Below are positions 32,820 to 62,805 of a DNA stretch of 64,000 nucleotides, piece after piece. The stretch is taken from NCBI RefSeq assembly GCF_040958095.1, contig NC_091227.1, positions 21,860,526 to 21,924,525 on the forward strand, written 5' to 3'. Both the position numbers and the translations under genes were made by a program. How positions within the stretch are numbered: the stretch's first letter is position 1; every line of letters starts with the position of its first letter. This DNA comes from Procambarus clarkii (lineage: Eukaryota; Arthropoda; Malacostraca; Decapoda; Cambaridae). Under the pieces are notes generated by a model. That model was given only the letters and a program-made list of their open reading frames with translations. It was not told the DNA's origin and searched no databases.

Positions 32820-33173
32820 ATACCAATTTTTGTCAACTACCATTCAAGCTGTCATTGCAATCAATCATATATTGTTTCTGCTGTATTGTGCCTACCAATT
32901 TGTTGTCAACTACCATTTTAAGCTGTCATTGCAATCAATCATAGCTACCTATGTGCTTTAATATACTGTACCTATAATTTTCTCTCATCTTTTTTTTTCA
33001 TTCCATGTAATCTGTTTTCATTTTTTTGTCTATAAACTTTGCAAGTATTTACCTCCTTAAAATTTTCTTAGATTAAGGACCTGCCCGAAACGCAGCGCGT
33101 GCTAGTGGCTTTACAAGACTGTAATTACCATATTTGTATCCTCACATTCCTTATGTACATTCTTGTATATGCA

Positions 33174-33204
<31 letters not shown>

Positions 33205-33205
33205 A
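32820..33205 (+). mobile_element. LINE 3-prime region with duplicated segment and shared hairpin
   Basis: Two copies of TTGTCAACTACCATTCAAGC...GTCATTGCAATCAATCATA are followed by the module CCCGAAACGCAGCGCGTGCT AGTGGCTTTA and a (AAAT)n tail at 33174-33204. The same order, inverted, lies at 44.79-45.18 kb. Confidence 0.75.
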
Positions 33206-33214
33206 TTCATTGTC

Positions 33215-33540
33215 CCCTGTTGTCGAGGACAGGAAGCCTGTACTTAGTCTTATCGAGGGCTCTATAGGCTAACTACAACCTTTCCTAGGATGCAACCGAC
33301 GACAATTCCCCAACTCCCAGTTCCTAGTTTTCTGCTAGGTGAACAGATGCATCAGGTGAACGGAAACTTGCCAAACTGTAATTATCTGACCCGGGGGATT
33401 AAACACAAGTATATTCAAGGCAGGGCGAGACGTATGGGCAAGTCTCCTTACACCCATTGCCCATGTTCACCTACCTAGCAGTGATTGGGAACCTGGGTGT
33501 TAGTAAACTATTGTTGGTGGAATGGGGACTGGTCAAATGC
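33215..33540. repeat. SINE-like dispersed repeat
   Basis: CCCATGTTCACCTACCTAGC followed by AGTGATTGGGAACC, and the CTAGGTGAACAGATGCATCA block, resemble the bodies of the SINEs at 18.1, 44.05 and 46.85 kb. Orientation is unclear. Confidence 0.45.
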
Positions 33541-34846
33541 TGCATATATCCGAGGTATACTTGAATTTCCCCACAAACACCGCAAGGCACAGCACGGGGA
33601 AAATAGCCGGAAGGCTACACATGAAATATGCCGCAAGGTAAAGAAACTAAAGCCGCAAGGCCACAGCAACAAGTGGGCCAGAAGGACTCAGGAGTCTAAA
33701 AAAGGGGGGTTTACACCCAAAGTCAAAAAGAGGGTCCATGAACAAACAAGCTGCAAGTCCTTCAGGTGTGGCCCAAGGATATACAATGTGTCCTGTTGCT
33801 AAACTGTCCAAGAAAATAAAAAAATAGACAGGTTTGGGCGTCAAGGCAGGCATCTTATACTTTGTTATCATAAGTAGCTTATTCTTATTCTACAATCTTC
33901 ACCCCCTTCCTTATACCAATCAGTTAATTTTGTTTTATTTATTAAGAAGCAATGTACATATTAGTTCCCGAATGTCAAAGGAATGGTCATTTAATTAGGT
34001 TCGACTTGAAGAAATACTCGTTACTCAAAATAGCTTTACCACTTGAAGCTTATGAGTTTGATGACTCCTTACCCAGCAACACCACCAAGGTCCTGAAGCA
34101 AAGTTTGTAAAAACATTTTGACAACACAATGAATAATGAGGATAATATGTTTTAAATTAATAAAATCGGCCAAACCTGTAGTAGAATGTTGGTCATAAGA
34201 GAGCACGAGGTTTTGGCGTGTTTACAAAATAAAGAGGTGTGAAACACCCACTTCAAGCACACTTGTGGTACAGTTTCCTGTTGTCTGCTGTGTATGTACA
34301 GATCAATACACCCTAGCACCTATACTGACGTACCCTGACATACACCAGTGTGTGCCGTATCAAGCAGGGTGTGCCTCTACTTCACCTGTTCACTCCCCGC
34401 CCCATGAAAGAGTCCCTCGACCAAATATCTTACGAGTAATGTGTAGCCACGGTCCACAAGGGTGCAGTGAGCGCACATGCAACACTCCCTCTCTCTCACC
34501 CTCCTGGCGCCCCCCTCACCCTTCAGCCCCACCCTTCTACATATACTTCATGCAACACACCCACCACACACCTACTCCATGTCCTACAGCAACCACATGT
34601 CACAACAATGAAATATATTGGTCAATTATGAACAATGAACAATATAAACATGCTCCGGTGCTTTAATCTTTGTGGTTCCTGGACAACAAATACCGTCCTG
34701 GCGGGCGGAGGAGCCCGTCAGGTAGACAGAGCAGCACTTCAAAGGGTTAGGACAGGGACAATCACCACGGCAAGTGGATTTTACATACCAGTAATAGAGG
34801 AAGTAACCCTGATCATTCCGTACAGAACACCATCACAGCATCTTAC

Positions 34847-35030
34847 CTCAACCATAACAGGATGAGGAACCGCGCCCGTCATTGGTTAAATCTTGTCCCT
34901 CACACCAATCACAGTTCGCCTTATGAAACGCACTGGGCGTCAAAAGTCATACAAGAGAGCTCAGTGATTGGTCTAGCTGGCGGTGCTCCACCAATGGCTA
35001 AAACCTATACACAATCAGCTGGGTGTGTGT
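34847..35030 (-). promoter_or_regulatory. Candidate CCAAT-rich promoter and noncoding first exon of TRF2
   Basis: Four CCAAT/ATTGG boxes occur at about 34883, 34905, 34970 and 34992, as two closely spaced pairs, in a relatively GC-rich stretch (GCGCCCGTCATTGG). A minus-strand donor GGTTGAG|GTAAGA ends at 34847, so a 5-prime UTR exon could splice over 10 kb to 24736. This is inference; retroelement regulatory DNA with similar CCAAT boxes exists at 41.7-42.1 kb. Confidence 0.3.
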
Positions 35031-35829
35031 AAAGGCTATCAGAGGACCGGAAGAGTAATATCTGATGCGTTACACATTTATCCTCGTATTATATGAGGGC
35101 AAACTGTAATCGCATCACTCTTCTTTATCACAATAGGGCATAAGGCACAAATTGTAAGACAAATATTCGAGATGATATAATTATGCAAACTCTTAATAAG
35201 AGTAGGGCGTTGACTTCAGCAAATATATATATATTTATGTATAATTATACATAATTAAGTTAAATACATAGGCCTTACTAGTACTTAATACAGTTTCGAT
35301 AAAATATTCAGATCACCTGGAAGGTCATCGATTAACCAGAATGAAGATGAGAAGATGAGAAACAGGAATGCAAAGAATTCGACAGGCTGGAGAAGCAATC
35401 ACATATTGCACATGTCCCGTCTCTCAGTCACCTCTGACGGTCTTCCCAGACAAATTTTCGCTGTCTAGACAGCACTCTAAATATGAAGTATTTCTGATTA
35501 CAATTATAAATTTTGTCTAAAATGTGAATATTGGCTACCCCCAGTATTGTCGCAGCTACAATATAAATGTAGGCCAAATGCCTGGGGGTAGGTACCCTCA
35601 CCCAACTTTGGTGGGTAAATGGTCTGAGGAACGAACATAGGACGGGGTTGGTACTATTGGTCCTACTAAGAGATGGTAAAACACTCAATAATGGATCAAA
35701 TTAAGTCCAGGTGACTGGAATCAATAATGGATCTTCCCCTTCACCCTTGCACAAAAAATGAACGATGGCGGACCCAATCCATAGATTTATTAAACACGCA
35801 TTAATTTGCCTGAATTTACCTGAGGGCCA

Positions 35830-36200
35830 CTAGCACTCTAGTGGCCTCGATGAGGGCAGGAAGCAAGCGACTTGTCAAAGGTCCACCATTTGTCTTGAAT
35901 TTGTTCAACCTGGATTTTAAAGTTTAGCAGAGTTTTGGCATTTTCGGCTTCGGCAGGTAGCCGGTACCAAGGGTTTATTACCCTGTGGGTGAAAAGGCCT
36001 CTGTTTTCAATCCTTGTTGGGCTTGAAACCGTTACTCTTTGTCTACGTTACATTTGACCTTTTGAAGAAGTTATATGGATCAACATCCTCTAAATTGTTC
36101 AGTATTTTGAACGCTTCTTTGAGATCAGCCTAATCATGTCTGGTTTTCAGTGTTGAGGGCTCTGTGGCCCTCAACTTGACCTGGTATGAGAGTTGACTTA
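35830..36200 (-). repeat. Dispersed repeat shared with 46.5-46.65 kb
   Basis: TTCGGCAGGTAGCCGGTACC followed by GGTTTATTACCCTGTGGGTG AAAAG matches TTCGGCAGGTAGGGGATTCC followed by GGTTTATAACCCTGAGGGTG AAAAG at about 46,550. No coding frame is recognised. Confidence 0.55.
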
Positions 36201-36447
36201 GTTCTGGAATTATTTTTATTGCCCAGAAATGCAAATATATGTCACTTCAAGGTTGGAAATTTTCTAATCATCATATTTTGCTCACAGTAGCATAAAACAG
36301 ATGATCCTCTCACAGACTTTCTTAAGCCTCTGCCTCTATCTCAAAACAAACAGGTATCTATTATATATTAATAATTCACACCACTACGCTCTACCCGCCA
36401 GTGGACCATCCACACACCAATGAAAGACTATTATATTATTTTTATTA

Positions 36448-36565
36448 GTAAGAGAGAGAGAAAGAGAGACAGAGATAGTCAGCAAAAAGACAGAATGAGA
36501 AAGACAGTCAGATACAAAGACAGACACACAGAGACAGACACAGAGAGAGACCAGGTAGGTCAAAG
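36448..36565. repeat. GA/GACA-rich simple repeat
   Basis: Runs of AGAGAGAAAGAGAGACAGAG and CACAGAGACAGACACAGAGA. They create a charged low-complexity ORF on the plus strand that is not a gene. Confidence 0.85.
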
Positions 36566-36884
36566 CAAAATGAGAGAGGCAGGAAGACAAGCAAAATACA
36601 AAGATATAAACAGAGGACTAGATACAACCTCAACACACGAGGCTGTGTTCATTCGGGAGCTAACACCAGTAATCAAAATCCGGATGCATTTGACTTCGAG
36701 CATGCAGCTGTTCAATGGTCCTCCACTGATCATGAGGGAAAATGGCAGACCTGGCAGACACCTAAAGCTGGAGTCAGGCAACAATCACCTCATCCTGTCC
36801 TTCGACGCTACCTACGATTAATGTTAGGTGAATAGTAGAATGAGGTGAACCCCACTAAGTGTAAACACTATGGGCGGAAGCTGC

Positions 36885-39335
36885 CAAACTTAGTTCATTA
36901 CCTGCTGTAACGAGTCATTAGATTCTTGGAAAGATCTAAGAAAGGATTTTATTCTTACAGCAGGTAACAGTGGTGATGTCACTTGCACAGGTATTACCAG
37001 AGAAGAACTAATAACGGCGATTAAAGTTGGGAAATCTACCGCCCCTGGGGAGGATGGAGTAACTTATGAAATACTTAATGAACTTGCCATTATGACGAAA
37101 AGCCCACTTTTAGACCTCTTTAATATTAGTTATAAAGAGGGCAGTATTCCCAGTAAATGGAAAAAAGCTATGATCATCCCTATCCCTAAAGCCAATGAAG
37201 AGTACAGACCTGTGTCTTTAACCTTGTGTTTTTGTAAAATGATGGAGAGGATCATTTTAAATAGACTTTTATATATAATAGGTGATCAGCTGTCTAGTAA
37301 TTTGTTTGGGTTCCTCAAAGGAAAAAGTACCTCTGATTGTATTATTAAATGTCTAGCTAATGAAAATGATTATTATAGAATTTTTATTGATTTACAAGGA
37401 GCTTTTGATAAAGCCAACAAAGAGGTTATTTTATATGAATTAGCTGGTCTTGGTGTTAAAGGGAGATTATTGCGCTGGATAGGGGATTATCTTTACGAAA
37501 GGAAGGCTCAGGTGTGGTATCAAGGTTGTATGTCAGGTGTAAGGTCTTTTGAACTCGGTACACCTCAGGGAGGAGTGTTGAGTCCCACCCTGTTTAATGT
37601 ACTAATGAATAAGATAGCATCTGAGAGATACTCAAATGGGGTAACTCCGATCATATATGCCGATGATATTTTGTTTCAGGGCAAGGATATTTCAAAGGTG
37701 TTGGACAATTTCGGAAACCTGTGTCACCATATGGGACTGGTGGTTAATGAAAACAAAACTAAGTTTGAATGTAGAAGTCGGGGGCCCATTATATTGAAAA
37801 TAAACGGTAAAAATATAGAGAGAGTTAATATATATAAATATTTAGGCATATATGTTGGATATACCCATGAGAGTTTGGAAGCTGAGATGAGCAGACTGTT
37901 GGGTCAATGTCGGAAGAGATTACAACCTCTGAAGGCCTTGGCATGCTGTGGAAAGGGAGTGGGAGTCCCTGTGCTACGAATGTTATACTTGAGTACTGTA
38001 AGATCTCTTATTGATTATGGTGCACCTGTCATTTCTTGTTTTGGTAAAGGTAGGATGGGCAAGTTGGAGAAGGTACAAAATGAAGCCATGAGAATTATCT
38101 TAGGATGCCCAAGAAATGCTATGATTGAGATAATGAGGATGGAGTTGAATCTGCAGAGTATTGGGGATAGAATTGTAGAGATAAATGTAGCCTCTGCCAT
38201 TAGATTAATGAGAGGTAGGGGAGCTAATGAATTAATCCTCTCGGTTCAAAAGGTGGGAAGTAGTGAACAGTGTATGTTGAAGAAGAGAGTACTGTATATA
38301 TGAATAACTTATGTACTAATGTTATAAAGTATGATGTTATTACAGAGTGTATTGTTGTGCCCAAGAGAAAATTCACACCACCATGGGAGGATTGTAACGT
38401 AGATGTAATAATTACTCCCTTGCAAAAGAAAAGAGTATGTATGAAATAGGAGAGCTGAGGGCAACATATGATTGTATAATTAGAAAACTGCCTACAGAAA
38501 ACACTCTACATGTATATTGTGATGGGTCAGTAGCTAGGGATGGGAAGGCAGGATGTGGAGTTTTGATCAGGGAGTACACTGACATCGGCACTGTAGATAC
38601 TGTTATTGGACGCCGCTTAACTGACAATGTCTCTTCAACGCAGGCTGAACTCCAAGGAGTATTAGCAGGATTACAGGAAGTAGTCAAATGTGGTAAAAAT
38701 TCTTGCTTCTTTATTGACAGCAGAGGAGCGTTAGAGTCTTTAAATAGCAGACGCCCAGTATATCAGAATATTGTGATAGAGTGTAGAATGTTAAGAAATT
38801 AGAAAAAACTGGGTAGAAAGTAAGATTCATGTGGATCCCTTCACAAGTGGGAATACTGTTGAATGAGGTAGTTGATGACATAGCGAAGAGAGCCACTGAA
38901 AAACTCTTGTTGATGTTGTATGTCAGTTAACTTTGAAACAAGAATCAAGATGATCCAAGAGGGAGAAGAAATGGTAAAGAGAATGGCAATGGTGGACAGT
39001 AGTAACACACTTAAGAATTATTCAATAATAAATACAAATTCGTCCTTCATTTATGGTAAAGGAAAGTCTACTTGGAAGGATTCAATTTACATGAGATTAA
39101 GATTAGGATACAAATATATCTGGCAATACGGTGTTGATGTCTGTGAAAAAGATAAGGAGTGTAAATTATGTAGTATGCCGCACGCCCACACCTTAGAACA
39201 TCTTGTATTTGTATTCACTGAATTTGTGCGCCCCTTGAAGGACTTGAAGTAGAGGGGGTGGGGGGTAGAAATAACCTAAGCTACTCTATCCCTTTGAGAT
39301 GTATGTATTGCTTATCTCAGTAAACATACTTGAAC
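36885..39335 (+). mobile_element. I-clade-like LINE (family A): reverse transcriptase plus RNase H, degenerate
   Basis: The frame is readable from about 36890 (SWKDLRKDF, then STAPGEDGVTYEIL), and the 403-codon segment 37092-38303 contains motif A FIDLQGAFDKA, TPQGGVLSPTLFN and the catalytic YADD. After a break, 38437-38802 holds RNase H with VYCDGS, QAELQG and FIDSRGAL, and its last box WIPS lies in another frame. The C-terminal Cys/His tail is at 38920-39252. The 5-prime part (ORF1, endonuclease) is missing and at least three frame breaks disable it. The tail ends near AACATACTTGAACTTGAATG. The 4.19-kb copy is its truncated sister. Confidence 0.9.
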
Positions 39336-39984
39336 TTGAATGACAACATATTCAATTCCAGATCCTTTAAATTCATAAAGAAAAGTTAAAGTCGTCTGTT
39401 CAGTTGGTGTAATAACTATTATTTAAGAAGCTAGAGTGAGGAGCCATAAGGGTGTGCAACATCCCCAGTGAGAGTGAGAGTGAAGAGAGTGCCCGGATGG
39501 GGCTAGTAGCTCAGGCTTCCTCACTCAGTGCCGTCAGCTACACTCTACACATTTTCTCTTTCAACCACTCCTTGCAGCTGTAAATACAAGGAAAGCTGCA
39601 CTGAGATAATCTTATAACACAAGCAAAATAATTCTAAGAACTAGATCATAGTCTTCCCTCCGCCCCAAGGACATGTTTATTCATAACAGACATGCGTTGG
39701 CGACTCCGAGGATTTACAAATGCTGATCTACTCTCATTGTGAGGACGACAGGCACTACAATGACTTGTTACAATGAACACACCGAGGATGACAAAATATC
39801 GCCTCTCTGTGTGTGTACTGATCTATTTGTATTCACCTATTTGTGCCCGCAGGATCGAGTTCTAGCTGTTGAACCCCGCTTTTCTAGCCGTTGGTTGTTT
39901 TATTAATAACTCCTGACCATCTGCCTAACATACCTGCTTTTAAAGTTATGAATGGAGTTTACCTCTATAACTTACTCCTTTAAG

Positions 39985-40012
39985 TCATGTGTGTGTGTGT
40001 GTGTGTGTGTGG
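39985..40012. repeat. (GT)n microsatellite
   Basis: GTGTGT run of about 12 units, with a smaller TGTGTGTG run at 40034. Confidence 0.95.
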
Positions 40013-40029
40013 CCTCTACAACCTGCTCC

Positions 40030-40385: not shown

Positions 40386-40459
40386 CGTACCACCACCCAT
40401 TACTATGGCCGGTAGTGGATTGTGGTGTTGTGTGTGTCTACGACCTCATCCAGCTACAA

Positions 40460-40634: not shown

Positions 40635-40639
40635 CATCT

Positions 40640-43850: not shown

Positions 43851-43924
43851 ACAAAATATAATTTTTTAGGTGGTGGCCTCGTAAATACAAAGTAAATGCT
43901 CATTTTCATTTCAATTTGTTTTAT

Positions 43925-44207
43925 TTAAACATACAATTCTTACATTCTTGTAAAGTCACTAGCACGCACAATATTACGGGCAGGTCCTTAATCCTAATTT
44001 TCCCTGGAATATGACCCACTAAATCGTTTAACAACCAGGTACCCATTCACTGCTGGGTGAACGGAGGCGTACAGTTAAGGATTTGCCCGTAGTTAATCCT
44101 TACCGGTTAGGATACGAACCCACGCCAAATCGCTCGCGATGCGAGGGACAAAAATCTTACCAACAGCCATGGGGACTGCCTACCACTGCGCCACGGGGAC
44201 TGTAGTT
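43925..44207 (-). mobile_element. tRNA-derived SINE with duplicated head
   Basis: The minus strand begins TACAGTCCCCGTGGCGCAGT GG. The CAGTCCCC motif is then repeated about 25 nt later. B box GGGTTCGTATCC, body and the 3-prime module follow; here the module is decayed (CCCGTAATATTGTGCGTGCT). Confidence 0.75.
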
Positions 44208-44224
44208 ACGCGAAATGCTTTGCG

Positions 44225-44400
44225 TAATATTGGCTTTAAATAAATAGTATTTATTTATTTATTTATTTATTTATGTATTTATTTATATACAAGAAGGTAC
44301 ATTGGGATTGTGAGGATACATAGCATAGTAATTACGTTTTTGTAAAGCCACTAGTATGCGCAGTGTTTCGGGCAGGTACTTATTCTAAGAAGCACAAGAT
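44225..44400 (-). mobile_element. Truncated SINE/LINE tail with (TTTA)n end
   Basis: A (TTTA)n run at 44245-44285 corresponds to the poly(A)-like tail. It is followed by TATACAAGAAGGTACATTGG and the module GCCACTAGTATGCGCAGTGT TTCGGGCAGG (minus sense reversed). Confidence 0.65.
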
Positions 44401-44639
44401 TCTAAGTATGTGTAACTCCTGTCCCTACAATTGTACATTACTCTTATCTTCTTCGTATACACATTCTTTTAAATAAACATTGAAGTGAACTAAATTTGGC
44501 TAAAATACTTTAGTTTATGCTTCATTTTTTAGAACTGTTTAATTTTCTCTATGCTAAATACACAGAAAACGATACCCTACTGCTGTAACTTATATAATAA
44601 TAATAATATTAACAAGAAGAATGGGTTTGTGACATTATA

Positions 44640-44715
44640 TATGATTGGTATGTTTACATTCTTGCAAAGCCACTAACACACATGGCGTTTCGGGGAGGTC
44701 CTTAATCTAACAATT
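44640..44715 (-). mobile_element. Short LINE/SINE tail fragment with the shared hairpin module
   Basis: GCCACTAACACACATGGCGT TTCGGGGAGGTCC, the minus-sense module with loop CAT and one G-U type pair. Confidence 0.6.
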
Positions 44716-44779: not shown

Positions 44780-45180
44780 TTCCTTGATTTATTTATTTAT
44801 TATATTTATTTATGCATATACAAGAATGTACATAAGGAATGTGAGGATACAAATATGGTAATTATAGTCTTGTAAAGCCACTAGCACGCGCAGCGTTTCG
44901 GGCAGGTCCTTAATCTAAGAAAATTTTGAGGAGGTAAATACTTGCAAAATTTATAGACAAAAAATTGATAACAGTTACATGAAATGAAAAAAACAAGATG
45001 AGAGAAAATTGTAGGTACAGTATATTAAAGCACATAGGTAGCTAAGATTGATTGCAATGACAGCTTGAATGGTAGTTGACAAAAATTGGTAGGCACAATA
45101 CAGCAGAAACAATATAAGATTGATTGCAATGACAGCTTGAATGGTAGTTGACAAAAATTGGTAGTCACAATACAGCATAT
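44780..45180 (-). mobile_element. LINE 3-prime region with a duplicated 73-bp segment
   Basis: It is the inverse of 32.82-33.20 kb: a (TTTA)n end, CAAGAATGTACATAAGGAAT, the module GCCACTAGCACGCGCAGCGT TTCGGGC, then two copies of GATTGATTGCAATGACAGCT TGAATGGTAGTTGACAAA about 73 bp apart. No coding part. Confidence 0.7.
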
Positions 45181-45194
45181 GGCTAGCACATAAA

Positions 45195-45620
45195 AGAAGA
45201 CAGCAATGAACACAATGATAAGGTGTAATAGAACCCATGAGCACCACACCAGAAATAAATATATCTTTGATATCCCCAGTCAAACATTTGTGCAAATAAT
45301 CCATGCAAATAAAAGGACCCAGTCCTTGGAACTCACTCCCTGATGAATTAAAAAGATATCCAATCTATGCTCTATTCAAAAGTAAAACCAAAAAGTAATT
45401 CATTTCAGCCTCATAGTTTCCTACCTTGTGCTTCAAACTCACACTATATTGTAGTTATTCTTATCAATGTTATCACCTCTGAAAATTTATATTGTTGTGA
45501 TTCGTTAATATAAAACTGCACCTTTTCATCTTACCTGATATATTATGCCCGAAACGCTATGCGTGCGTATTAGTGGCTTTGCAAGAATGTACATATACCA
45601 ATCTCATGCAATCTCCCCAA
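45195..45620 (+). mobile_element. LINE family B-like 3-prime end
   Basis: The plus strand reads CNRTHEHHTRNKYIFDIPS and, in another frame, KGPSPWNSLPDELKRY then ALFKSKTKK, stop. This is the C-terminus seen in the 48-kb LINE. The tail includes CCCGAAACGCTATGCGTGCG and TTAGTGGCTTTGCAAG. Confidence 0.75.
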
Positions 45621-45639: not shown

Positions 45640-45800
45640 AATAAATTACATACATATAATATATATACATATATATACAAGAAGGTGCATTGGGTTTATA
45701 ATAGTACATAGCATTGATGTTTTTACATTCTTGTGAAGCCACTAACACGCATAGTGTTTCGGGCAGGTACTTAATCTAACAGATAATTTTAAGTAGGTAA
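45640..45800 (-). mobile_element. LINE/SINE tail fragment with the shared module
   Basis: ATATACAAGAAGGTGCATTG and GCCACTAACACGCATAGTGT TTCGGGCAGG match the tails at 44.3 and 44.9 kb. Confidence 0.6.
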
Positions 45801-46779: not shown

Positions 46780-47020
46780 GTTATCTTGAGATGATTTCGG
46801 GGCTTTAGTGTCCCCGCGGCCCGGTCCTCGACCAGGCCTCCACCCCCAGGAAGCAGCCCGTGACAGCTGACTAACACCTAGGTACCTATTTACTGCTAGG
46901 TAACAGGGGCATTCAGGGTGAAAGACACTTTGCCCATTTGTTTCTGCCTCGTGCGGGAATCAAACCCGCGCCACAGAATTACGAGTCCTGCGCGCTATCC
47001 ACCAGGCTACGAGGCCCCCA
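46780..47020 (-). mobile_element. tRNA-derived SINE with an intact cloverleaf head
   Basis: The head, 47015-46946 on the minus strand, folds as a tRNA: acceptor GCCTCGT/ACGAGGC (7/7), anticodon stem CAGGA/TTCTG with an anticodon-like CGT, and T stem GCGGG/CCCGC around TTTGATT. It continues into AGAAACAAATGGGCAAAGTG and ends with GGGGCTTTAGTGTCCCC-type sequence. The body identifies it as a SINE rather than a free tRNA gene. Partial copies are at 18.04 and 61.18 kb. Confidence 0.85.
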
Positions 47021-47266
47021 TATAGTTTATATAATTCTAAATAAACCAATGTATCATCCAGAACATGCGCCTTAAACCCGGAAGTTGTACTTGATCCTGC
47101 CTCGCAAGAATTTCAGTATTTTGTCCATTGAGAAACCCTCCTGCCTGCCTATCCACACAAATAATGTAATTAGAAAGTAGCACAATTATTGTATTCTTAA
47201 ATTTTCTTGTATTGAACAACTAGGTGAACAGACGCATTAGGGAATGGACATACAATACAACAACAA

Positions 47267-47686
47267 TACAATTTTATTTAGGTAAGGTACATACATACAA
47301 TAAATATTTACAAGGATTGTTTAACTTATAGGTATAGCTAGTACATACAATGCCTAAAGCCACTATTACGCAAAGCGTTTCGGGCATGATAAACTTAAAT
47401 GACAAGCTTAATACTAATTGAGCATAATGAGTAGAATGAAAACAAGAAATGAAAACATAGATGAAAAAGCAGCACAAATACAATTATGTCGACAAACAGC
47501 GCTCTTTAAAGAAAAAAACAGACATTGGTTGACAATAGAAGGGTAAGGTAGGTTACAGGGAATTTATTAGGTATAGCTTCGCTTTTAACTTAAACTGGTT
47601 GAGAGAGGTACAGTCTTTAACATGGTTGGGAAGGTCATTCCACATTCTGGGCCCCTTGATTTGTAGAGCATTTCTAGTTTGATTAG
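47267..47686 (-). mobile_element. LINE family B, second truncated copy in tandem
   Basis: It carries only the last codons and the tail (TGGAATGACCTTCCCAACCA, then TGCCCGAAACGCTTTGCGTA). It abuts the full tail of the 47.69-49.59 kb copy directly, so one element inserted at the end of the other. Confidence 0.85.
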
Positions 47687-49590
47687 ATGTTTCAGATTCA
47701 GATGTTTATTCAGGTAAGGTATATACATACAAGTGATGTTACATTAATGGATTGATATATAGATAGAGCTAGTACATACAATGCCTAAAGCCACTATTAC
47801 GCAATGCGTTTCGGGCAAGAAAAAACATTAATATCTAGAACTTAATACTAATTGAGCATAAAGAATAAAAGATGTTGAGAACAAATACAAATAAAGATAA
47901 AAAAAAAGGGGGAACATGACTGAAAAAGCAGCACAAATACAATAGGTTGACAAACAGTGTTGATTAAAAAAAAGAAAAAAAAAAGAAAATAACAGACATG
48001 GGTTGACAATAGAGGAGTGAGGTAGATTACAGGGAATTTATTAGGTAGTGTTTAGTTTTTATCTTAAACTGGTTGAGAGAGGTACAGTCTTTAACATGGT
48101 TGGGAAGGTCATTCCACATTCTGGGCCCCTTGATTTGCAGAGCATTTCTAGTTTGATTAAGACGTACTCTAGGAATATCAAAACTGTATTTATTTCTGGT
48201 GTGGTGCTCATGGGTTCTGTTACAACCTTCTATGAAGCTTTTAAGATCAGGATTGGCATTATAGTTTAGCGTTTTATATATGTATAATACACATGAGAGA
48301 ATGTGCAGTGACTTAATATCTAACATATTAAGAGATTTGAGTAGGGGTACCGAGTGATGTCTGGGGCCAGAGTTGGATATTGTTCTAATAGCGGCTTTGT
48401 GTTGGGTAATTAGAGGACGTAAGTGATTTTGGGTAGTAGAACCCCAAGCACAAATACCATAGTTGAGATAAGGATAGATAAGGGAGTAATAGAGAGTCAC
48501 CAGAGCAGGGCGTGGTACATAATATCTGATCTTAGAAAGAATGCCCACAGTTTTTGAAACTTTTTTTGATATATTTAGAATGTGTCCCTGGAAATTCAGC
48601 TTGTGGTCAATGAGAATGCCAAGGAATTTGCCATCTAATTTGTTACAAATTTGGGTATTGTTTATTTTGAGATTTATAAGACTAGAGGATTTATTGCCAA
48701 ACAGAATATAGAAGGTTTTGTCAATGTTAAGGGTGAGTTTGTTGGCAGTTAGCCAAAGATGGACTTTATTTAGCTCAGTATTTACTGTGGCATTTAGAGC
48801 AAGAGGGTCAGGACTGGAGTAAATGAAGGTTGTGTCGTCAGCAAATAGAATTGGTTTGAGGTGTTGGGAGGCATTTGGAAGGTCATTAATGTAGATGAGA
48901 AAGAGGAGAGGGCCAAGTATGCTGCCCTGAGGAACACCAATGTTGATGGGTAGGGTGGGAGAAATTGTATTATTCACAGAAACATATTGGAGCCTGTCAG
49001 TAAGGTAGGACTCGAGGTATTGTAGGGAGTGTCCTCTGACTCCATAATGATGTAGTTTAAGAAGAAGGTTTTGGTGGTTGACAGTATCAAAAGCTTTACG
49101 CAGGTCCACAAATAACCCAACAGGGAGCTCCTTTTTATCAAGAGCTGTATGAATCGAGTTAAGCATACTAATAAGTGCATCGTTAGTGCTTTTTTTGGGT
49201 CTGAAGCCATATTGGCAAGGGCTAAGTATATTGAGTTTGGCTAGATATGAGTAAAGCTGCTTGTATATAAGTTTTTCAAAAATTTTTGACAAGTTTGGCA
49301 GGATTGATATAGGTCTGTAGTTGTTAACATCTGTGGGGTCACCACATTTGTGGACAGGCGTTACTCTCGCTTTTTTTAGAATATCTGGAAAGGTTTGGAG
49401 TTCAAGTGACTTGTTGAAGAGCAAAGCAATAGCAGGGGCTAAAGATCTGGAGGCTTTTTTGTAAATTAAAGTTGGTATCTCCTCAAGGGCACCAGACTTG
49501 GTTTTAAGGGAAAGGATTATCTCATGTACCAAATCGTTTATCTCCTGCCCGAGAGTCCCGATTATAAGTTTTTGGGTATGTTTTAACGGT
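47687..49590 (-). mobile_element. Non-LTR retrotransposon (family B) with a 501-codon intact reverse-transcriptase frame
   Basis: The open frame 49532-48027 lacks the endonuclease and enters RT directly. It has YRPISILPNLSKIFEKL, motif A FVDLRKAFDTVNH, GVPQGSILGPLLFLIYINDL and the catalytic FADD (LFADDTTF), then a thumb and C-terminus with CNRTHEHHTRN and GPRMWNDLPNHVKD. No RNase H is seen. It belongs with the CR1/L2-like group by these boxes, though clade assignment needs a tree. The frame extends upstream of the TTG at 49532 to a stop near 49577, so the copy is 5-prime truncated. Its tail has TGCCCGAAACGCATTGCGTA and ends AATAAACATCTGAATCTGAA. With no frame breaks it may be young. Confidence 0.92.
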
Positions 49591-50475: not shown

Positions 50476-53400
50476 ATGTTCGCCGGGATGAAGAAACTAT
50501 TATTTCTGTTATTGCTGGTGCTTCCTGTGATCATCTCCATAACCAATGAAGGTAAAGCGAGTTTGGTTTCTGTGGATTAATTGGCAGGTGACGGATTACT
50601 AACTTTATTTCCTTAGTGCATTTCGGTTTCAAGATCGGCCGGCCTGTGCATCCTTGAGACAACTGTAGGAACTTCATGTAACTTCTTAATAAGAAAGCTG
50701 TCATAAAAGGTTCCACTCGGTCTTGGGGGGACCACTAAAGACACTAAAACTGGATAAACAAACATTTTGGAAAATCTTATTAAATCAACACATGGATTTT
50801 TACAACATAAAATCTTGATTTACTAATCTCACATATTTGGAGACGATAACCAACAATTCCAACACAAGACTCCCAGTAGCTCTAAAGCTGTTGATAAGAT
50901 ACTACATGGAAAACTGCCAAGGATATTACAAGTGCCGGAATAACAGGTAAAATACAGTACTAGAATATTTAAAAGACAGCAAAGGGTTCTAAATGTAAAT
51001 GAATATTACTAGAAAAACGTAGCAAGTGGAGTAACTCAAGGTTTCATCTTGACGCCAACCCTATATGTTATTCATCAATGACATACAAGAATATTAAAAC
51101 GCACAAAGAAATTTGCAGATCGCGTTAATGTTTTATGGTATAGTAGGATGTGAACATTATATATGTCTTGCAATGTGATCAACATGATCCTGAAATTTAA
51201 AACTATTTAATTTAAGAAAAAGATGATGGTAAAAAGACTGTATAAGTTTCTGGTGTGCCCCATCTGGACAGCTTTATCTGTATTGCAACCTCACTTTCAA
51301 AAGATGCATCTACGTTGGAGAAAGTTTAACACTAAAAAAAATTATTGCAAAACTGTCGACTCTCATTCCAGGAACGATTAAGAGCTACAGAACTAATATA
51401 TATACTTCGAAATACTGGACTGAACAAATTGGAATATATTAATCCAGACTATTTTTTCAAAGGGTCAAATATAATACTGTACATTTAAGGAGCAACAGCC
51501 ACATGCTTAGGGCCTGCACAGGAATATCCCTGCCCCCAAAAAATAAAAATAGCAATGGTGTCCCATTGAGTAAATTCAGGTAAAGGCGGTCATAGTTGAA
51601 TAAAAGTCAAATGCTGCAAGTTCCAATCAGTTCAAATGCAAGTACTGTACTGTGTAATTGTAAGGAATCTGTCAGACTAGTATTTGGTCATCACATTGTG
51701 AATCAATGATTTAGTAGAGGTAATGATAAAAAAACTTATATCCCACCCTCACACAGTTATGCTTGAGCCCTCATTAAGTTAGGGTCTATTGTTTGTATAA
51801 GAGAGTGAGTGAAGGGAGAGCATTAGTATTGTATGTTTGTAATGTAAGGTACTTGGCAGAGAGGACTTCCTGGATTGGCCAAGATTGACAAATACTAATA
51901 TTTATTGTTCTTGAATATAATGTTTGATATTATTCTAGGTCAAATGTCAGCATGGGCTCAGGAAGATGAAGTAGAGGGAGAAGAGGAGGACCTCGCAGAT
52001 GACGACGAAGTAAATGTTGACGATGGCACTGGTGCAGAGGTTGATACAACTGAAGGAGGCGGCGAAGAGGAAGAGGAGGAGGAGGAAGCAACAGCCAAGG
52101 GGTCACCAGATGCAGACACTATTATTCTTTTCACTAAGCCTGTTGGCTCGGGGACAGGTTAGTCACTTTACATAAAAGTATCACGGTTCATTACCTTGAC
52201 TACATTCTTAGCTGATCATTAACATGTAGAAAATAATTAAGGAATGAGAGAGTATCTGGATTGGCTAAAACCTGGAAGAGAACATGGATATCAAATAGGG
52301 AAAAGTTTTGCCTGGCAGTTATTATAATATAGCAGGATAAAGAAGGCTGGAAAGATTTAATTTTCCTAGACTATCAGAAAGCATTTGAAATGGTTCCTCA
52401 CAAAATGTTACTATGTAAGATTGAGAGACAAGATAGGATACAGTAACTGCAAAATATATTAAATAGCTTATGGGAGTACCAACATACAGGAAACAGGAGT
52501 CACAATCAGAGATGTTGGATTTTAAAGATGTAGCAAGCATAGGGTATTGATTAAACAGAGGGAGGATGTTTATATTGAGAATAAATGTAATGAGGGTAAC
52601 ATACAGAGAATATAGACACAGATGATTAATATGGATGATGGAAACCCTTTTTTCAGTTTAACTGCAATGAACAAGTGAAGTGGATTAGAATGGGAAATAG
52701 AGGTTATGTACATCTATATTTATAGAAATGTGTATGATAATAGCAAAGGAGTTGGAAGTGCTTGTATTTGATGGTTGACAATTGGAAAAGCAGTACTTGG
52801 GGACTGAAGCTCAGTTCTACAAACTGTAGTTAGGTCCAAACAAATCCTTTGCTACATTGTTGTAATTAGGATGTAATTTTGTTATCCATTCATCAGCTAC
52901 CTCTGTTAAAGCAAGTTTGCTTCATATATTTCATACTTTTACATTTTTCACCTTTTAGTGGCATTGATTATGTATTTTTCAACAAATAGCTTCCCCCTTT
53001 TTTGTGCAATTTACTGTATGTTGGTTATCTAATTGCAGAACTACCTGCTGGAAAGTTGGTAGAATTCCTTGTGGGCTTTACAAACAATGGTGACAAGGAC
53101 TTCATATTGGATGCCATTGATGCATCATTCCGCTATCCTATGGATTTTAACTTCTACATTCAGAATTTCACTGCTATTCCTTACAACCGTGCTGTGAAGC
53201 CACGGCAGGAGGCCACAGTTATGTATTCATTCTATCCTGCTGAAGCATTTGCTGCACGCCCTCTTGGACTAACTGTCAACCTTGCATATCATGATGCTGT
53301 AAGTAATGTTCTTAAATTTTATTTCTTTATCAGGCAACTTTGTAGGGTTATCTTGAGGGTTTGCCCCTCCTCCCTTAGTGCTGTATTATTCAATGTATTA

Positions 53401-56430: not shown

Positions 56431-57000
56431 ACCATCTGATGCTACCTCTGAAGATGTTCAGTTAGTTGTTACAGATGACAACTGTCAACATAACAATCAT
56501 TGTAAGCTGCAAGATTGTGGAAATAGAAAAAAACTACTGAGGTTGCCTACAGTAGGGAACATTAATGAAGAAGGTTTTTTCCACTTGATTGCTTGGCATG
56601 AAAAAACATGTCTCATACTAATGAACATTTTTATTTGCTCATGGAAATGCACTAGTGTGTGTATATTCTCAAATTTGTTTCAGGCAATTTATCATATTCA
56701 ATTCTTAAGTCTCAAACTCACTATACATCAGTGCCCCCAAAGTTATCTTCAGGTTTGGTGACTTCTATGTTGGAAATTAATAAGTAATTTTTTGTATTTA
56801 TTATTATTAGTCATGATGACTGAAGACAACTTTGGGGGCAATCAGGTTTCGATTGTGGACCTCAGCATAATGGGGGGGGGGGGGAAGAGAATTATTTGTA
56901 ATGCATTTTATAATGTACTAAGTGTTTGCATATTCAGTGTCCTATGTAGAATAAAATGTTATGTAAACAAAGGTCCAATAAATATTTGCCCTAGAATTGC
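56431..57000 (+). other. Probable SSR1 3-prime UTR
   Basis: Sequence after the TAA stop. Two AATAAA signals at 56950-56955 and 56977-56982 are candidate poly(A) signals. The 148-codon frame starting at 56315 overlaps the last exon in a different frame and is not supported. Confidence 0.5.
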
Positions 57001-59290
57001 TTTGACTGAAATTCATGAATGAATACTTAAAAAACTTAGTTTTATGCTGGTGTCATTTTATATTTGACCTTTTCCAAAGGTGTATTGCACTGCTATAATC
57101 GGTTAAATGCCTTCTATCTTCGTGAGAGGGAAATACAGTACGAAGATTGGAAAAGCTGTATAAAGAATTTTTAGTCATACTGTAATGAGCAAATAGATAA
57201 TAGTGAGAAAATGCATTTGAAAGGAGGGATAGAGGAAGGCTGAGTAGTCATAATTAAACAAATGGCAAGAAAATTTGGATGTGAGAACAGTCCATGGGTA
57301 GTGATGGATTGATGTGAGAGGGAATGTTTGACCTCTTTCAAATAATAACTTGCTAGAAATACTTTACCCTTAAACTGCTGTCACCGTGAAGAAATCGACA
57401 GTGCTCTATTCACCTGTGGCAGAGTTAACATGCCTTGTAATATTAATAACTAAGATTTTCTGTGGATGTTGTTTGACACTCAAAATCTGTTGCAGTTGTT
57501 TGCCATTTCGATGAAAAATTAAGAAATCCTTATTTTCCTTCCTGGGAATTAGTAAAAATATTGGCACAATGTCAGGTGCAGCACCATCCATTTACTGATC
57601 CCTATGATAGATGTTATGCTAAATTTTAAATTGGGTCAAGTAGATTTGTGATAAGGAGAATCTATTACAAATAGTGTACTTATAATAGAAATGAATGCTT
57701 TACAGAATAGAAAGGAAAAAGAATATTTAGATTTTTTTATTCACAACATAAAATCAACCTAAAAGCAGGATGCACACATAGAGTTAAGGATGTCTTCTAA
57801 CCAAAAGGGCATTTTTTTATATAGATAAAGTACACAGCACAATCATCTAAATTAATAAAAGTATTTGGAAAATATACAGCTACTATATTTATACTATCAG
57901 GGAGAGTAATATTGCAGTTACATTACCATATCTTTGGCATAACATTGAGATCCATGTTTTAGTTGTTAGGACACTGATATAAGAGGACAAACTGGTTTGA
58001 ATCGTGGCCAGTTTGGTACCATTCATTAATTTAGTGTACTGTGCAATAATAAGGTATGTGGATGTAAAATGATTGAATCATGTAGGGAAAATATGGCACT
58101 ATAATAACCAAAATGTCAACATAAAAAATTAAGGTATTTTTCAATTAACAGATTATTAAATTAAATAGAAAATTGTATACAGCAAAAAATGGCATTTTTG
58201 TTAACTGGAACCCCTAGTATATGCATCCTTATAATAGTCAAACTTTTGTAGATGGTACTTGCTGCTAAAAATAGTGCTACGTAGTATAAATTGGTACCTT
58301 TAATGCAGGACTGGTAATGCAAAGTATAGGATGAAATAAATCACAATGAGGAGGATTAAATGCAGAAGAGTTGTTTACTAAAGCATTTTATATTTGCCAT
58401 TGTAAAAATGTTAATGGCATCCAATTCTCTTACGATGGAAAAGGCAGTGGGTTACAAGTGGCCTAACATTCCTTGATTTCAACCAGATAATTTTGTAAAT
58501 ACACATACAGAAGTGTTAGAGTATTGTGAAATGTTTTTCCATGTTGAATGAGGGAAATGTATAAAAGGTACATGGAAAATAGGTTGAGAGCACCATTGTC
58601 CTGTCTTCAACCTAAGTACCACAATACTACATTTATGGCAGTGATTGCTTTAATATTTCGTTAAACAATGTATGTTGGATATGGTCAAAACTGAGTTGGA
58701 AGGAAATTGGTAAAAGCTGTAAGAGAGAATATAGATGGAGTGGCTGCCTCTATAGTAAGTTACTGGGAATGAATGAAGAGTGGGTATTTTATACTGCCAC
58801 AGTACTTTCACACAATTTTAAATCTTGATTCTTCCATTGATGGTTAAGAGAAATGATACAATGTACTTTTATAATGTTGAAACTTATGTCACTTGAAACT
58901 AGAAAGGCTGTTCAGTGGTCGATTATAACCCCAAAACATTATTTTGGTTTTACTCATCATAGGTTGCCCCAGTACACCAGTCAAAAATCAACAATTTAAC
59001 ATCTCGGCCAATTTTGACTGCATGTTAGTTTTAAATGAAAGCCTAAATGTAAATCAATGTCAGCATCAGTATTGTGGTGTACAAATATATTTTGATGTGT
59101 AAGGAGGCTTCAATGATCTGCAGGGTCAGTTAAGGTTGGTTTATGAAGCTCCTCCTCTTCCCTGAGGTGAAAAGAGAGGAGACAAAAATTATCTGATTGT
59201 CCAATGTATATTTTTTCCCTATGTGGAGACAAGTATATTTACCATTTCCTCTTAATTGGGAGTAGAGTGCCCTGGAAACTACAGTTCAAT
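57001..59290. other. Gene-free AT-rich stretch
   Basis: No ORF over about 62 codons and no splice-linked coding segment. A faint LINE-like GRKLVKAVRENIDGV reading is present at about 58690-58740 (plus), plus scattered SINE-like B-box text near 57990. Confidence 0.45.
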
Positions 59291-59299
59291 TGCTGGAAA

Positions 59300-59600
59300 T
59301 ATCAGTCTATCAACAATTAAATTGACAGGCATACAAAAAAGGGTGTCGAATGCAGCTATCTAGGAAATCAGATCAGCCTCCCCACAAAAAAGGAAAACTT
59401 GCTCTAAACATAAGGAATGACCCCAAGGCCCACTATGCTTATATAAGGAGTAAAATCAAAACAACAATGTCCATAGGGAATTGAAAAATGAGACCAAGTG
59501 AAAACCGATGACGAAAAAGCATCTGAAGCTGCAGTTATAAAAGCAAACCCAATCCTAGGAATAGTCAAACGAAATTTTGACGAAGGAAAATGTAGTTTCT
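59300..59600 (+). mobile_element. CR1-like LINE relic (linker and start of RT)
   Basis: Frames read LNIRNDPKAHYAYIRSKIKT and, after a shift, ILGIVKRNFDE. These resemble the KxNPKxFYxYVRSK linker and a LGxIxRNF box of CR1-like LINEs. Confidence 0.55.
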
Positions 59601-59639
59601 GTTCGGGGAGAAAAACGCATGCCTAGTATGGGGGGACTT

Positions 59640-60304
59640 ATTTATTAAAGTATAAAGATGAATAATTATCTGCAGTAACATAATAAAAGTATGCTTAATA
59701 GCTATAAGTAAAAGTATATGACGGAACGCTGTAACATAGGTGAGTAGTTACAGTAAATACAGGTAAAGTAGTTAAATTTATAGAGATGAATAACCTGCAG
59801 TAACAATTAATAAAAGGTATGCTTAATTTTAATAGCCATATGTAATAAGTATAAGACATAGTGCTATAACCTAGGGGAGTTAATACAGTAAATACTAAGA
59901 GCAGAAGAATGGTACATAGCGGACCGAAGCTGCAGCAAAATGGAGGACGCGACCCCACTTACCCTCGTTTAAGTATGCCTCACATACTTAGCGCGCAGCG
60001 CCCACTTGCGCATGTTTTTCTCCCTTCCAGAAATTCCCCCGCTTTCCGAGGCAAGCAGGGCCCATTTATACAACTGTATAAATCTCTGGTGTGCTTCCAC
60101 TTGGATTATTATCGCTCGCTCTCCCGCATAGAGCTCTGCGACTGCGGCCTCACTCAGCTCTCTGCTCTGCTCTAAGCTCCGTCTGAACGTCTACGATAAT
60201 GCCACCAACCGACTACTGTAATCAAGACTACTAAATAAATATGAAACTCACCAAACACTGTGTATCTAATCTACCCAACAACGTAACATAATCGTACGTT
60301 ACAC
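59640..60304 (+). repeat. LTR-like repeat (copy 2) with an internal tandem duplication
   Basis: The 3-prime 190 bp match the 40.46-40.63 kb repeat and likewise end GTACGTTACA. Upstream are two imperfect copies of about 115 bp (GATGAATAATTATCTGCAGT...ACAGTAAATAC and GATGAATAACCTGCAGTAAC...ACAGTAAATAC), as is common in LTR U3 regions. Whether 59.64 kb is the true left edge is not clear. Confidence 0.5.
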
Positions 60305-60317
60305 CTCATCTTCAGAA

Positions 60318-60715
60318 AGACATATCTGCTTTGGAGAAAGTTCAACACCGGGCGACTAAAATATTTTCCGAACTAAGTCGACTTTCATACCAGGAACGGT
60401 TGAGGGCCACAGAGACCAGCAGACATGACAGGACTGCTCTCAGCAAAACTTTTCAATTACTGAACAACTTGGAAGATATTGACCCAGACGAACAAGGAGC
60501 AACGGTTTCGAACTCAACAAGCCACACTGAAGGATGGAAAACATTTGTTTTCACCTATAGAATGATATAATTGTGGAAACGCATACCCGCCGAAGCCGTA
60601 AATGCCAAAACATTGCTCGATAAAATCACCAGGGCAAATAGGGAGACATTTGACAAGCCGCCGGCTTCTTATCCTCACTGAGAGATAGTGACCTTCTGGT
60701 AAATTCAAGTAAATC
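60318..60715 (+). mobile_element. CR1-like LINE reverse-transcriptase C-terminal relic
   Basis: LEKVQHRATKIFSELSRLSY, QERLRATETSRHDRTALSKT and FQLLNNLEDIDPDE are the thumb boxes. After a stop, LWKRIPAEAVNAKTLLDKIT follows. It sits directly after the LTR-like repeat. Confidence 0.75.
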
Positions 60716-60959
60716 TTAGTTAATTAAATAATCCTGAAAAGTTTGCTTATTGAAGGCAGGGCTGTGTTAGCAGCCTTATACTCTCTGAGCAAAGCAATGC
60801 ACTGTTGCCCTCCAACCCAGATGATGGGCACTGGGGCCCATGTCTGTGGACCTATACTTACAACCACGTTCTCGTCTGTGGACCCTCCCTACTTTGGTAG
60901 GGCTCTCAGTGTGCTTGGTAGAGTTAGGGGGGGGGGGGGGTGTTTGTCTGGTTAGACGA

Positions 60960-61115
60960 GGTGTTTGTTTACCAGACCACACACTAGAAAGTGAATTGAT
61001 GACGATGTTTCAGTCCGTCCTGGACCATTCTCAAGTCAATTGTGCATTCTCACACTCGACTTGAGAATGGTCGAATATTTCAGCCACGTTATTCCTCGTC
61101 TGCAGGTGTTTGTTT
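60960..61115. repeat. Decapod-type repeat with a 15-bp perfect inverted repeat
   Basis: GACCATTCTCAAGTC (61023-61037) and GACTTGAGAATGGTC (61058-61072) are exact inverse complements around a 20-nt loop. Flanking ACCAGACCACACACTAGAAA and TTTCAGCCACGTTATTC recur in part at 15.55 kb. Confidence 0.8.
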
Positions 61116-61127
61116 GCTAGGCCTGTA

Positions 61128-61168
61128 GGTACACAACTGGTCGGGCTCTGGTTACACAACTGGTTATC
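61128..61168. repeat. Short minisatellite, ACAACTGGTCGGGCTCTGGTT unit
   Basis: About 1.5 copies of a 23-bp unit that recurs at 63.94-64.0 kb at the right edge of the window. Confidence 0.6.
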
Positions 61169-61169
61169 T

Positions 61170-61240
61170 TGAGATGAGAGATGATTTCGGGGCTTAGTGT
61201 CCCCGCGGCCCGGTCCTTGACCAGGCCTCCACCCTCCTGT
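61170..61240 (-). mobile_element. SINE 3-prime fragment
   Basis: ATGATTTCGGGGCTTAGTGT CCCCGCGGCCCGGTCC matches the end of the 46.78-kb SINE. Confidence 0.7.
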
Positions 61241-61249
61241 ATTGTTATG

Positions 61250-61358
61250 CTAGGCTGTATTAGGTTATGTTATTAAGGTTAGGCTGCATTGGGCTCGGTT
61301 GGATTAGACTGGTTTGATTTGAGTTACGTTAGGTTGGGTTGAGCTAGGTTACTCAGGT
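61250..61358 (+). repeat. Degenerate TTAGG-like repeat
   Basis: Over about 105 bp, GGTTA/TTAGG/GGTTG-type words recur, with exact TTAGG at 61260, 61279 and 61329. TTAGG is the usual arthropod telomere unit. Periodicity is loose, so a telomeric origin is only a possibility. Confidence 0.45.
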
Positions 61359-61379
61359 TTCAAAATTCAAAATTCCACT

Positions 61380-61628
61380 ACGGCACGGAGCAATCTCTGT
61401 GGCGCAGTGGTAAAGCACGCGCCAGGCTCTTCCCCAGCGCTTTGACCTGGCCGGGAAGAATTGACCGGGCGCCAATCCTTAACTGTTCACCCAGCAGAGA
61501 ATAGGTTGTTAAACGATTTGGCGGGTCGTATTCCGGGGAAAATTTAGGATTAAGGACCTACCCGAAACGCTATGTATGCTAGCGGCTTTACAAGACTTTA
61601 AGAACTATTTTTATATATAAATAAAACA
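61380..61628 (+). mobile_element. tRNA-derived SINE, plus strand
   Basis: ATCTCTGTGGCGCAGTGGTA (A box) is followed by a decayed B box (GCTTTGACCTGG), CCGGGAAGAATTGACCGGGC and CGTATTCCGGGGAAAATTTA. The 3-prime module is CCCGAAACGCTATGTATGCT AGCGGCTTTACAAG. Same family as 43.93-44.2 kb. Confidence 0.8.
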
Positions 61629-61639
61629 ATAATAAAAAA

Positions 61640-62455
61640 AATCCGCTGACGAATCTTTTTGTGTGCGATGAGACTTAATTGTATCTGACATAATTACAAT
61701 ATTAACTTAAATAATTCGCTTGTTAGACAATATATGATATTCAGATCTATAAATTATATTTGGAAAGGCCTATAATGCATATAAATATTAATTTACACAT
61801 TCCTGGTGCTATACGCTAGGAATTTCAATATGGTGTTCAAATAATTTTAGGCAGAGGGTCTCTGGGTCGGTTGGTCGCTACGGGTCATCGACCACGACCC
61901 CGCCAGTCGACAGGAAGCAGCGGCGGCGTGAGCATCGTCGTTCCCGTATAGGTAAGGCTGACATTTTTTGTTGTTTGCAAATATCTGAGCAGTTGGGAGG
62001 TACGCATGAATATATAGTCTACCTCCACCTACAATGCTTAATGCATTATACATTTGTTCGCTATTATAATACTGAGTTTTTGTAATGTCTCCGAGAATCA
62101 TTGTTTCCGTATTTTTTTTTTTCATCCGGGTTCTATAGTATTCAAATGTTTGTATTCCACTAATGTCAAGTCAGTCAAGTCAGATAGTCAGTCCTCTCTA
62201 GGGTATTGTGGAAGATTTTGAGGATCATGATTTGCCAATATTATATAGGTAGGATATTATGTAGAATGCACTTCCCCAGTGTTAAACCACTCCATCGTCA
62301 GGCTAGGCTCGTTAACGCGGCGGTCGTCTCCCCCTCATCCCAAGAGGCATTTATTATCGACTTCCATGTACTGTGTATTAAAAATAGTTTTTATCGTGTA
62401 TAAATTCATTTTATATTCTATGTTTAATTAGGCGTATAGTAGGTTCGGTATTTAG
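61640..62455. other. Gene-free stretch
   Basis: A 92-codon minus-strand frame (62125-61847) has no recognisable features. Near 62155-62190 there is a small run of GTCAGTCAAGTCAGATAGTC repeats. Nothing else stands out. Confidence 0.4.
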
Positions 62456-62547
62456 GTTCTCAATTTCAATTTTCTTTATTATGCACCCCATACCCATCCC
62501 GTGCGGCGGTGTAAAGGATTACAGAGGCACACAATCGGTTCAGAAAC

Positions 62548-62805
62548 TGAACCCTCTATTTTTTTTTTTTTTTTGAGATATAGACAAGAGTTGTTACATT
62601 CTTGTAGAGCCACTAGTACGCGTAGCGTTTCGGGCAGGTCACTGGAATACGATCCACGCCGCGAAGAATCGTTTTTTCAACCAAGTACACATTTTACTGT
62701 AGAGTTAAACACAGGCTGCAGTTAAGGATTTGCGCCCAGTAAATCCTCCCCGGCCAGGATACGAACCCATGACAAAGCGCTCGCGGAACGCCAGGCTAGT
62801 TCGTT
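62548..62805 (-). mobile_element. SINE nested inside LINE family C
   Basis: The T16 run at about 62560 (its poly(A) tail), CAAGAGTTGTTACATTCTTG, the module GCCACTAGTACGCGTAGCGT TTCGGGC and the body match the 19.76-kb SINE closely. The tRNA-like head is mostly missing, ending near AACGCCAGGCTAG. LINE text resumes on both sides (CTGAACCCT and TTTAGCTAAGCAA). Confidence 0.88.

Follow-up and report, generated by a model that had tools for sequence, protein, structure and literature searches.

The window analysed here is a stretch of 64,000 nucleotides (nt) on contig NC_091227.1 (positions 21,860,526 to 21,924,525). It contains long and short interspersed elements (LINEs and SINEs) whose tails share a short module. 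Its conserved form is a 32-nt block, TGCCCGAAACGC-NNN-GCGT-NN-TAGTGGCTTTA, with complementary ACGC/GCGT arms around a loop of three letters. A preliminary description of the window had listed 13 positions of this repeated word, and all 13 hold the module, at 3061 its right half only. CCCGAAACGCNNNGCGT with at most 3 mismatches is found at 14 places of the window against 0.64 expected, a count reached in none of 100 shuffles, and TAGTGGCTTTA with at most 1 mismatch at 17 places against 2.15 expected. Two of the 14 CCCGAAACGCNNNGCGT places (19643 and 19984) are non-modules; at 19984 the match is to a SINE head in antisense. Decay hides the copy near 43955 from the CCCGAAACGCNNNGCGT search, and it was recovered via TAGTGACTTTA; one more weak copy at 44209 on the plus strand lies outside any tail context. 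Judged by eye, the stem of the 12 full copies is intact (ACGC/GCGT) in 7, keeps G-U pairing in 1 (44678) and is broken in 4 (43964, 44356, 45747 and 61561), and the copy at 45548 has 4 extra letters 3' of the stem. The LINEs and SINEs with their tails are located as follows:

48027..49589, minus strand: LINE A, C-terminal 520 codons of the endonuclease-reverse transcriptase open reading frame (ORF; RVT_1)
47690..47815, minus strand: LINE A tail with loop ATT, module at 47799-47815, ending in AATAAACATCTGAATCTGA (lower limit by eye)
47250..47684, minus strand: older LINE A copy with ORF end (47556-47684) and tail, module at 47368-47384, loop TTT (lower limit by eye)
3061..3150, plus strand: LINE A tail cut at the stem, with only the right half of the module (upper limit by eye)
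32800..33170, plus strand: LINE B 3' untranslated region (UTR) and tail, module at 33084-33100, loop AGC, 98% identical to the LINE B UTR over 262 nt (limits approximate)
44810..45230, minus strand: LINE B 3' UTR and tail, module at 44886-44902, loop TGC, 97% over 323 nt (limits approximate)
45548..45620, plus strand: LINE B-like tail with a 4-nt insertion after the stem, loop TAT, matches to the ORF end upstream at 45224-45410 (upper limit by eye)
45660..45763, minus strand: LINE B-type tail, ACAC/GCGT, loop TAT (lower limit by eye)
44600..44694, minus strand: LINE B-type tail, ACGC/GTGT, loop CAT (lower limit by eye)
44290..44372, minus strand: LINE B-type tail with broken stem ACAC/GCAT, loop TGC (lower limit by eye)
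19764..20027, minus strand: SINE1 with tRNA-like head, central part, short B-type tail (module at 19819-19835, loop TAC) and poly(A) (limits by eye)
62559..62800, minus strand: SINE1 with incomplete head, module at 62618-62634, loop TAC and poly(A) (limits by eye)
43919..44203, minus strand: SINE2 with decayed module at 43964-43980 (limits by eye)
61389..61625, plus strand: SINE2 with module at 61561-61577 (ACGC/GTAT, loop TAT) (limits by eye)

Two of these places show further detail. At 47250-49589 the elements are nested, the young LINE A sitting in the older LINE A near the end of the latter's ORF. A tandem array that covers at least 2835-3060, and whose unit contains ATATGTATATCTACAGGCATATGTATATAG, abuts the cut LINE A tail at 3061.

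The assembly that was searched comprises 4.03 Gb in 2,308 contigs, and listed places lie beyond 1 Mb on contigs numbered as high as 92; the genome is very repeat-rich. Genome-wide, with at most 2 mismatches, 43,819 + 43,767 = 87,586 places were found, while the reversed pattern used as control gave 0. Two types of tail can be distinguished by their continuation (stem free in both patterns): type A continues with TAGTGGCTTTAGGCAT at 22,933 places, type B with TAGTGGCTTTACAAGA at 15,894 places. The first 100 listed places of each type, all of them on contig C1 and some in duplicated segments, were inspected by eye. Both arms matched without deviation at 90 B-type and 89 A-type places. The loop had been described as free; it goes with the family instead. 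The A-type loops were 77 TTT, 19 ATT, 2 CTT, 1 ATC and 1 TAT, and the B-type loops 80 TGC, 13 TGT, 3 TGA, 3 TAT and 1 TAC, so that the two sets barely overlap.

LINE A and LINE B, which we take to be L2-like, both contain an endonuclease followed by a reverse transcriptase (RT), recognized as PF03372 and PF00078 in LINE A (1000 aa) as well as in LINE B (669 aa). The LINE B protein is identical to that of LINE A at 397 of 664 residues, and in both a P-W...E-like stretch lies between endonuclease and RT. In the genome search for LINE A the best 83 of 315,884 first-look candidates were scored, the window copy included. Because these 83 matches are 98-100% identical and have long open frames (502 to 1,037 residues, many of about 1025 aa), we consider the family to be young. 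Thirty LINE A loci were fetched, some of them neighbouring or duplicated, and in 26 the distance from the ORF stop to the start of the module is 201-217 nt. The exceptions are L036 (no match; 1-nt insertion), L037 (259 nt, or 211 nt from a second C-terminal match), L051 (101 nt) and L056 (248 nt). AATAAA follows the module in most listed LINE A tails. As seen by eye, the elements end in short tandem repeats: ATCTGA, TTGTA, TTA or TTTA-like units in LINE A, TAAA units in LINE B and A-runs in SINE1. In a few copies (L002, L028, L050 and L052) the LINE sequence seems by eye to start few letters from the 5' edge of the module. BLAST of the upstream sequence, which covered L028 and L002 of these four, gave 0 nt for L028 and a weak 26-nt match reaching 60 nt upstream for L002.

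We regard the conservation of the block between LINE A and LINE B, rather than covariation, as the main evidence of function. One LINE A copy (L034) was compared with one LINE B region (frame from L062, UTR from L027). At four-fold degenerate sites 49 of 155 positions are identical against a fraction of 0.299 expected from composition, meaning that divergence is saturated. The 3' UTRs of the two elements show one match with an expectation value (E) below 0.001 (3.7e-5), and this match is the 32-nt block, identical at 27 of 32 positions. All five differences lie in the loop (three letters) or directly 3' of the stem (two letters). The binomial probability of such identity is about 1e-9 at p = 0.316, a value that ignores the picking of the best block. 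Since 27 of 32 positions are identical while four-fold sites are saturated, we conclude that the block is under selection.

The same module is found at the end of the SINEs. An internal 50-mer of SINE1 occurs at 22,608 places in the genome with at most 3 mismatches. Sixteen SINE1 loci were fetched by their body, all with zero mismatches to the 50-mer and from listed places on contigs C1 to C3; some of them share flanks (L065, L067 and L068; L070 and L074) and some heads are incomplete. In all 16 loci the module closes the element; after it come CAAGAATGTAACAACTCTTGTATATATCTC, slightly altered in places, and an A-rich run. Fifteen of the loops read TAC and one TGT. SINE2 is known from the window copies at 43964 and 61561. 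Together with its place in 26 of 30 LINE A loci, its place in 16 of 16 SINE1 loci supports the earlier view that LINEs and SINEs alike end in the module, which is thus no separately inserted repeat. We surveyed 60 module copies with distinct flanks from the window and the fetched loci (16 of the 19 SINE1 rows having been fetched by body). The 21 A-tails stand behind LINE A in 17 cases, behind a SINE in none, and have no assignment in 4. Long B-tails (17) belong to LINE B in 10 cases and to SINE2 in 2, with 5 lacking assignment, and short B-tails (20) to SINE1 in 19 cases and to LINE B in 1, a chimera; 2 further rows fit neither type. All 21 SINE copies examined (19 SINE1 and 2 SINE2) have a B-type tail.

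The 3' ends of SINEs and LINEs are common yet inexact: the loop letter differs and SINE1 lacks a stretch. Between TACAAGA and TCTTGTA SINE1 is about 32-38 nt shorter than the LINE B tail, and most SINE1 copies keep both arms. This second inverted repeat is present at 33103-33170 and 44800-44902 of the window, in other B tails and in the SINE1 tails of L065-L080. Considered as a second helix, it reaches 6 bp or more in 12 of the 16 long B tails and 16 of the 20 short ones, but so do 0-10 of 50 shuffles of each copy. The counterpart in LINE A, TTAGG/CCTAA, was found in 7 of 16 tails and is at chance level (31-44 of 50 shuffles). The SINE1 loop TAC is the common loop of neither LINE, therefore either the middle loop letter is unimportant or the partner was missed.

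One locus, L030, was considered as a LINE with the exact SINE1 end and rejected: four fetched next-best relatives, out of 39 other scored matches, end in a long B tail of the usual kind, and the locus looks chimeric. At L030:1300-1575 (the same as L081) a LINE B 3' UTR with a TGC-loop module is joined to a SINE1-type end with poly(A), probably via template switching or conversion inside the common block.

With regard to the SINE heads, that of SINE1 folds as a cloverleaf and that of SINE2 does not. No Rfam tRNA match with E up to 1 was obtained in the 6 searched of the 16 SINE1 loci or in the SINE2 stretch. Target-site duplications were not detectable in 13 SINE1 copies (mean shared run 4.08 versus 3.86 after re-dealing, 71 of 300). 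In addition, a tRNA-Thr call at window 46945-47015 on the minus strand looks like the head of a third SINE extending downstream to about 46740. The end of this candidate reads ATCTCAAGATAACCTCAAGATA without the module, and its central part resembles SINE1 and SINE2.

Sharing of tails between LINEs and SINEs is already known from fish, eels and other organisms, and on the sequences the tail described here would be a new example. L2-clade LINEs of zebrafish require a stem-loop in the tail, which is bound by the region between endonuclease and RT, the stem by cTBR and the loop by vTBR (PMC4176376). Like ZfL2-1 and ZfL2-2 of that study, LINE A and LINE B have an endonuclease-RT ORF, a short tail stem-loop (predicted here) and a P-W...E-like stretch between the two domains, and the related families within one genome carry different loops (PMC4176376). 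In the zebrafish elements the stem is swappable and the loop decides (PMC4176376), whereas here the arm letters are fixed and the loop is family-specific. The tail common to HAmo SINE and HAmoL2 of carp includes a GGAUA hairpin as well as terminal repeats (PMC2653535). As in this pair and in UnaL2/UnaSINE1 of eel, our SINEs have a LINE-derived tail and terminal short tandem repeats, and recognition of the tail hairpin by RT is proposed in each case; the SINEs of these pairs are tRNA-derived, as ours may be (PMC2653535, PMC3747384, PMC4176376). The GGAUA loop of UnaL2 and HAmo is not among the loops found here, which all have three letters, mostly TTT, ATT, TGC, TGT, TAC and TAT. While the SINE and LINE tails of carp differ by one base (PMC2653535), SINE1 has the shortened tail and the other loop letter described above. 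Plant L1-clade LINEs and SINEs also carry a conserved 3' stem-loop (predicted in our case), with the difference that there the stem letters vary and the loop and 3' flank are conserved (PMC3747384), compared with constant arms and a variable loop here. Among the titles and opening lines of abstracts listed in literature searches for a crustacean LINE/SINE pair of this kind, none describes this tail, which is weak evidence of novelty.

The module is the tail core of two related LINEs, shared by the SINEs and conserved at saturated divergence. In our judgement it most probably serves as RNA-template selector of the stringent type, with the SINEs being copied by a B-like LINE. The LINE protein would bind its own RNA tail to select the template and would begin target-primed reverse transcription at the terminal repeat; SINE RNAs, by means of their B-type tail, would compete for the LINE B protein. 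Binding would be by the RT, the hairpin may be the bound form and the loop could act as a family-specific label.

The conservation of the stem had been taken to point to an RNA structure, an argument that is weaker than the one from conservation of the block. Seven of 8 short cores (A, B and SINE) have one common minimum-energy fold, consisting of a lower GCCC/G-U-GGC stem with a bulged U, an internal loop, ACGC/GCGU and a triloop. Apart from 2 nt, the letters of the block that differ between A and B are those of the predicted loop. The predicted hairpin is plausible on these models. A number of results weigh against the template-selector reading or its hairpin. The hairpin is no more stable than shuffles, with z from -0.05 to -1.04 in eight cores and from 0.42 to -1.90 in four longer tails. 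In the longer tails the ACGC/GCGU stem is part of the best fold of LINE A and LINE B and is missing in SINE1 and SINE2. The proposed covariation check was carried out with 41 distinct cores (21 from a 23-core set and 20 from the A/B listings; L036 with its insertion shift, one core identical over 30 nt and C1:20287146, which has an intact stem, were left out), and none of the 7 pairs showed a double change. Paired cells amounted to 93.7% versus 94.2% in shuffles, 500 of 500 shuffles being at least as high, and RNAalifold prefers a different structure (-0.14 kcal/mol). This test is of little power either way, the stem varying little except by decay. Furthermore, the loops of SINE1 and LINE B are not identical: loop TAC with LINE B upstream context occurs at only 12 places, and the 5 of them that were fetched all have long tails. 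Of the 8 cTBR positions named in PMC4176376, 5 fit our LINEs by reading and 3 do not, including W344 (Y in A, V in B).

The GTGT variant had been cited in favour of a structure since it keeps pairing by G-U. In CpG variants of the arms a C-to-T change keeps a U-G or G-U pair and a G-to-A change breaks the pair. Pairing was kept in 1,112 and broken in 922 cases on the left arm, and kept in 975 and broken in 1,265 on the right arm, summing up to 2,087 kept and 2,187 broken (P 0.13). The arms deviate in opposite directions, with P of 3e-5 and 1e-9 when copies are assumed to be independent, which they are not. With no net bias the variant represents CpG decay and carries no weight as evidence of structure. 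The counts reflect mainly mutation after insertion and do not disprove a hairpin in active elements. A compensated double change from C-G to U-A at the second pair was found at 195 places versus a rough expectation of about 41, which assumes about 34,000 intact copies as estimated from the A/B listings. By eye, 39 of 100 listed compensated doubles have loop TAT compared to 20 of 100 and 14 of 100 in two single variants; because loop TAT is over-represented, the excess fits older, more decayed copies.

Recognition might instead depend on the sequence of the tail itself, with TGCCCGAAACGC and GCGT..TAGTGGCTTTA acting as two boxes separated by a spacer and the complementarity over 4 bp being accidental or unimportant. 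We consider this possible, if on balance rather improbable. Between A and B the boxes are as strictly conserved outside the stem as inside, and the missing covariation, a fold no better than shuffles, the lack of the stem in the most stable fold predicted for the longer SINE tails and the similar frequency of variants breaking and keeping the pairing (2,187 to 2,087) are all in line with it. Other observations speak against it: within the block A and B differ in the predicted loop (plus 2 nt), and 7 of 8 cores take one and the same nested fold at minimum energy. The CpG counts are mostly post-insertion decay and as such invisible to selection, and known stringent LINEs use stem-loops, as described in PMC4176376 and PMC2653535. 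In a further version of recognition by the LINE protein, the protein would read the fixed arm letters, and the triloop and the next two letters would be a label that keeps the two LINE families and their SINEs apart. We regard this version as unlikely. If true, the recognition logic would be reversed, and the genome would offer a natural loop-swap series on a constant stem.

A recent exchange of tails by template switching or gene conversion, in place of selection, could likewise have given A and B a common block, and L030, in which a LINE B UTR passes into a SINE-type end within the block, suggests that switching does occur. Such an exchange would require two switches inside some 32 nt, however, as the A and B UTRs share nothing around the block except poly-T and other short matches, and loop and following dinucleotide differ between the two large families, which makes such an origin very improbable. 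Equally remote is a role of the block in another RNA step (3' processing, export or escape from silencing) instead of the proposed recognition by RT: AATAAA lies 3' of the module in most listed LINE A tails, but the SINEs keep the block although they are presumably RNA polymerase III transcripts, which need no mRNA processing.

The findings suggest that a LINE-SINE engine has been at work in this large genome, which is probably that of a decapod. SINEs are described as rare, with 0.02% to 2.54%, in a survey of decapods (PMC10454600). The experiments on stringent LINE recognition in the work cited used fish LINEs. The very abundant and partly young LINE pair with one block and different loops, together with SINEs carrying a third loop, is natural material for studying which letters determine the RNA that is copied.

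Two further features of the window lie apart from these tails. An exon matching TRAP-alpha is located at 52990, as would suit an animal genome. At 36894-38802 lies another LINE-type RT frame (RVT_1), and the frame after it resembles RNase H, the latter by reading only.

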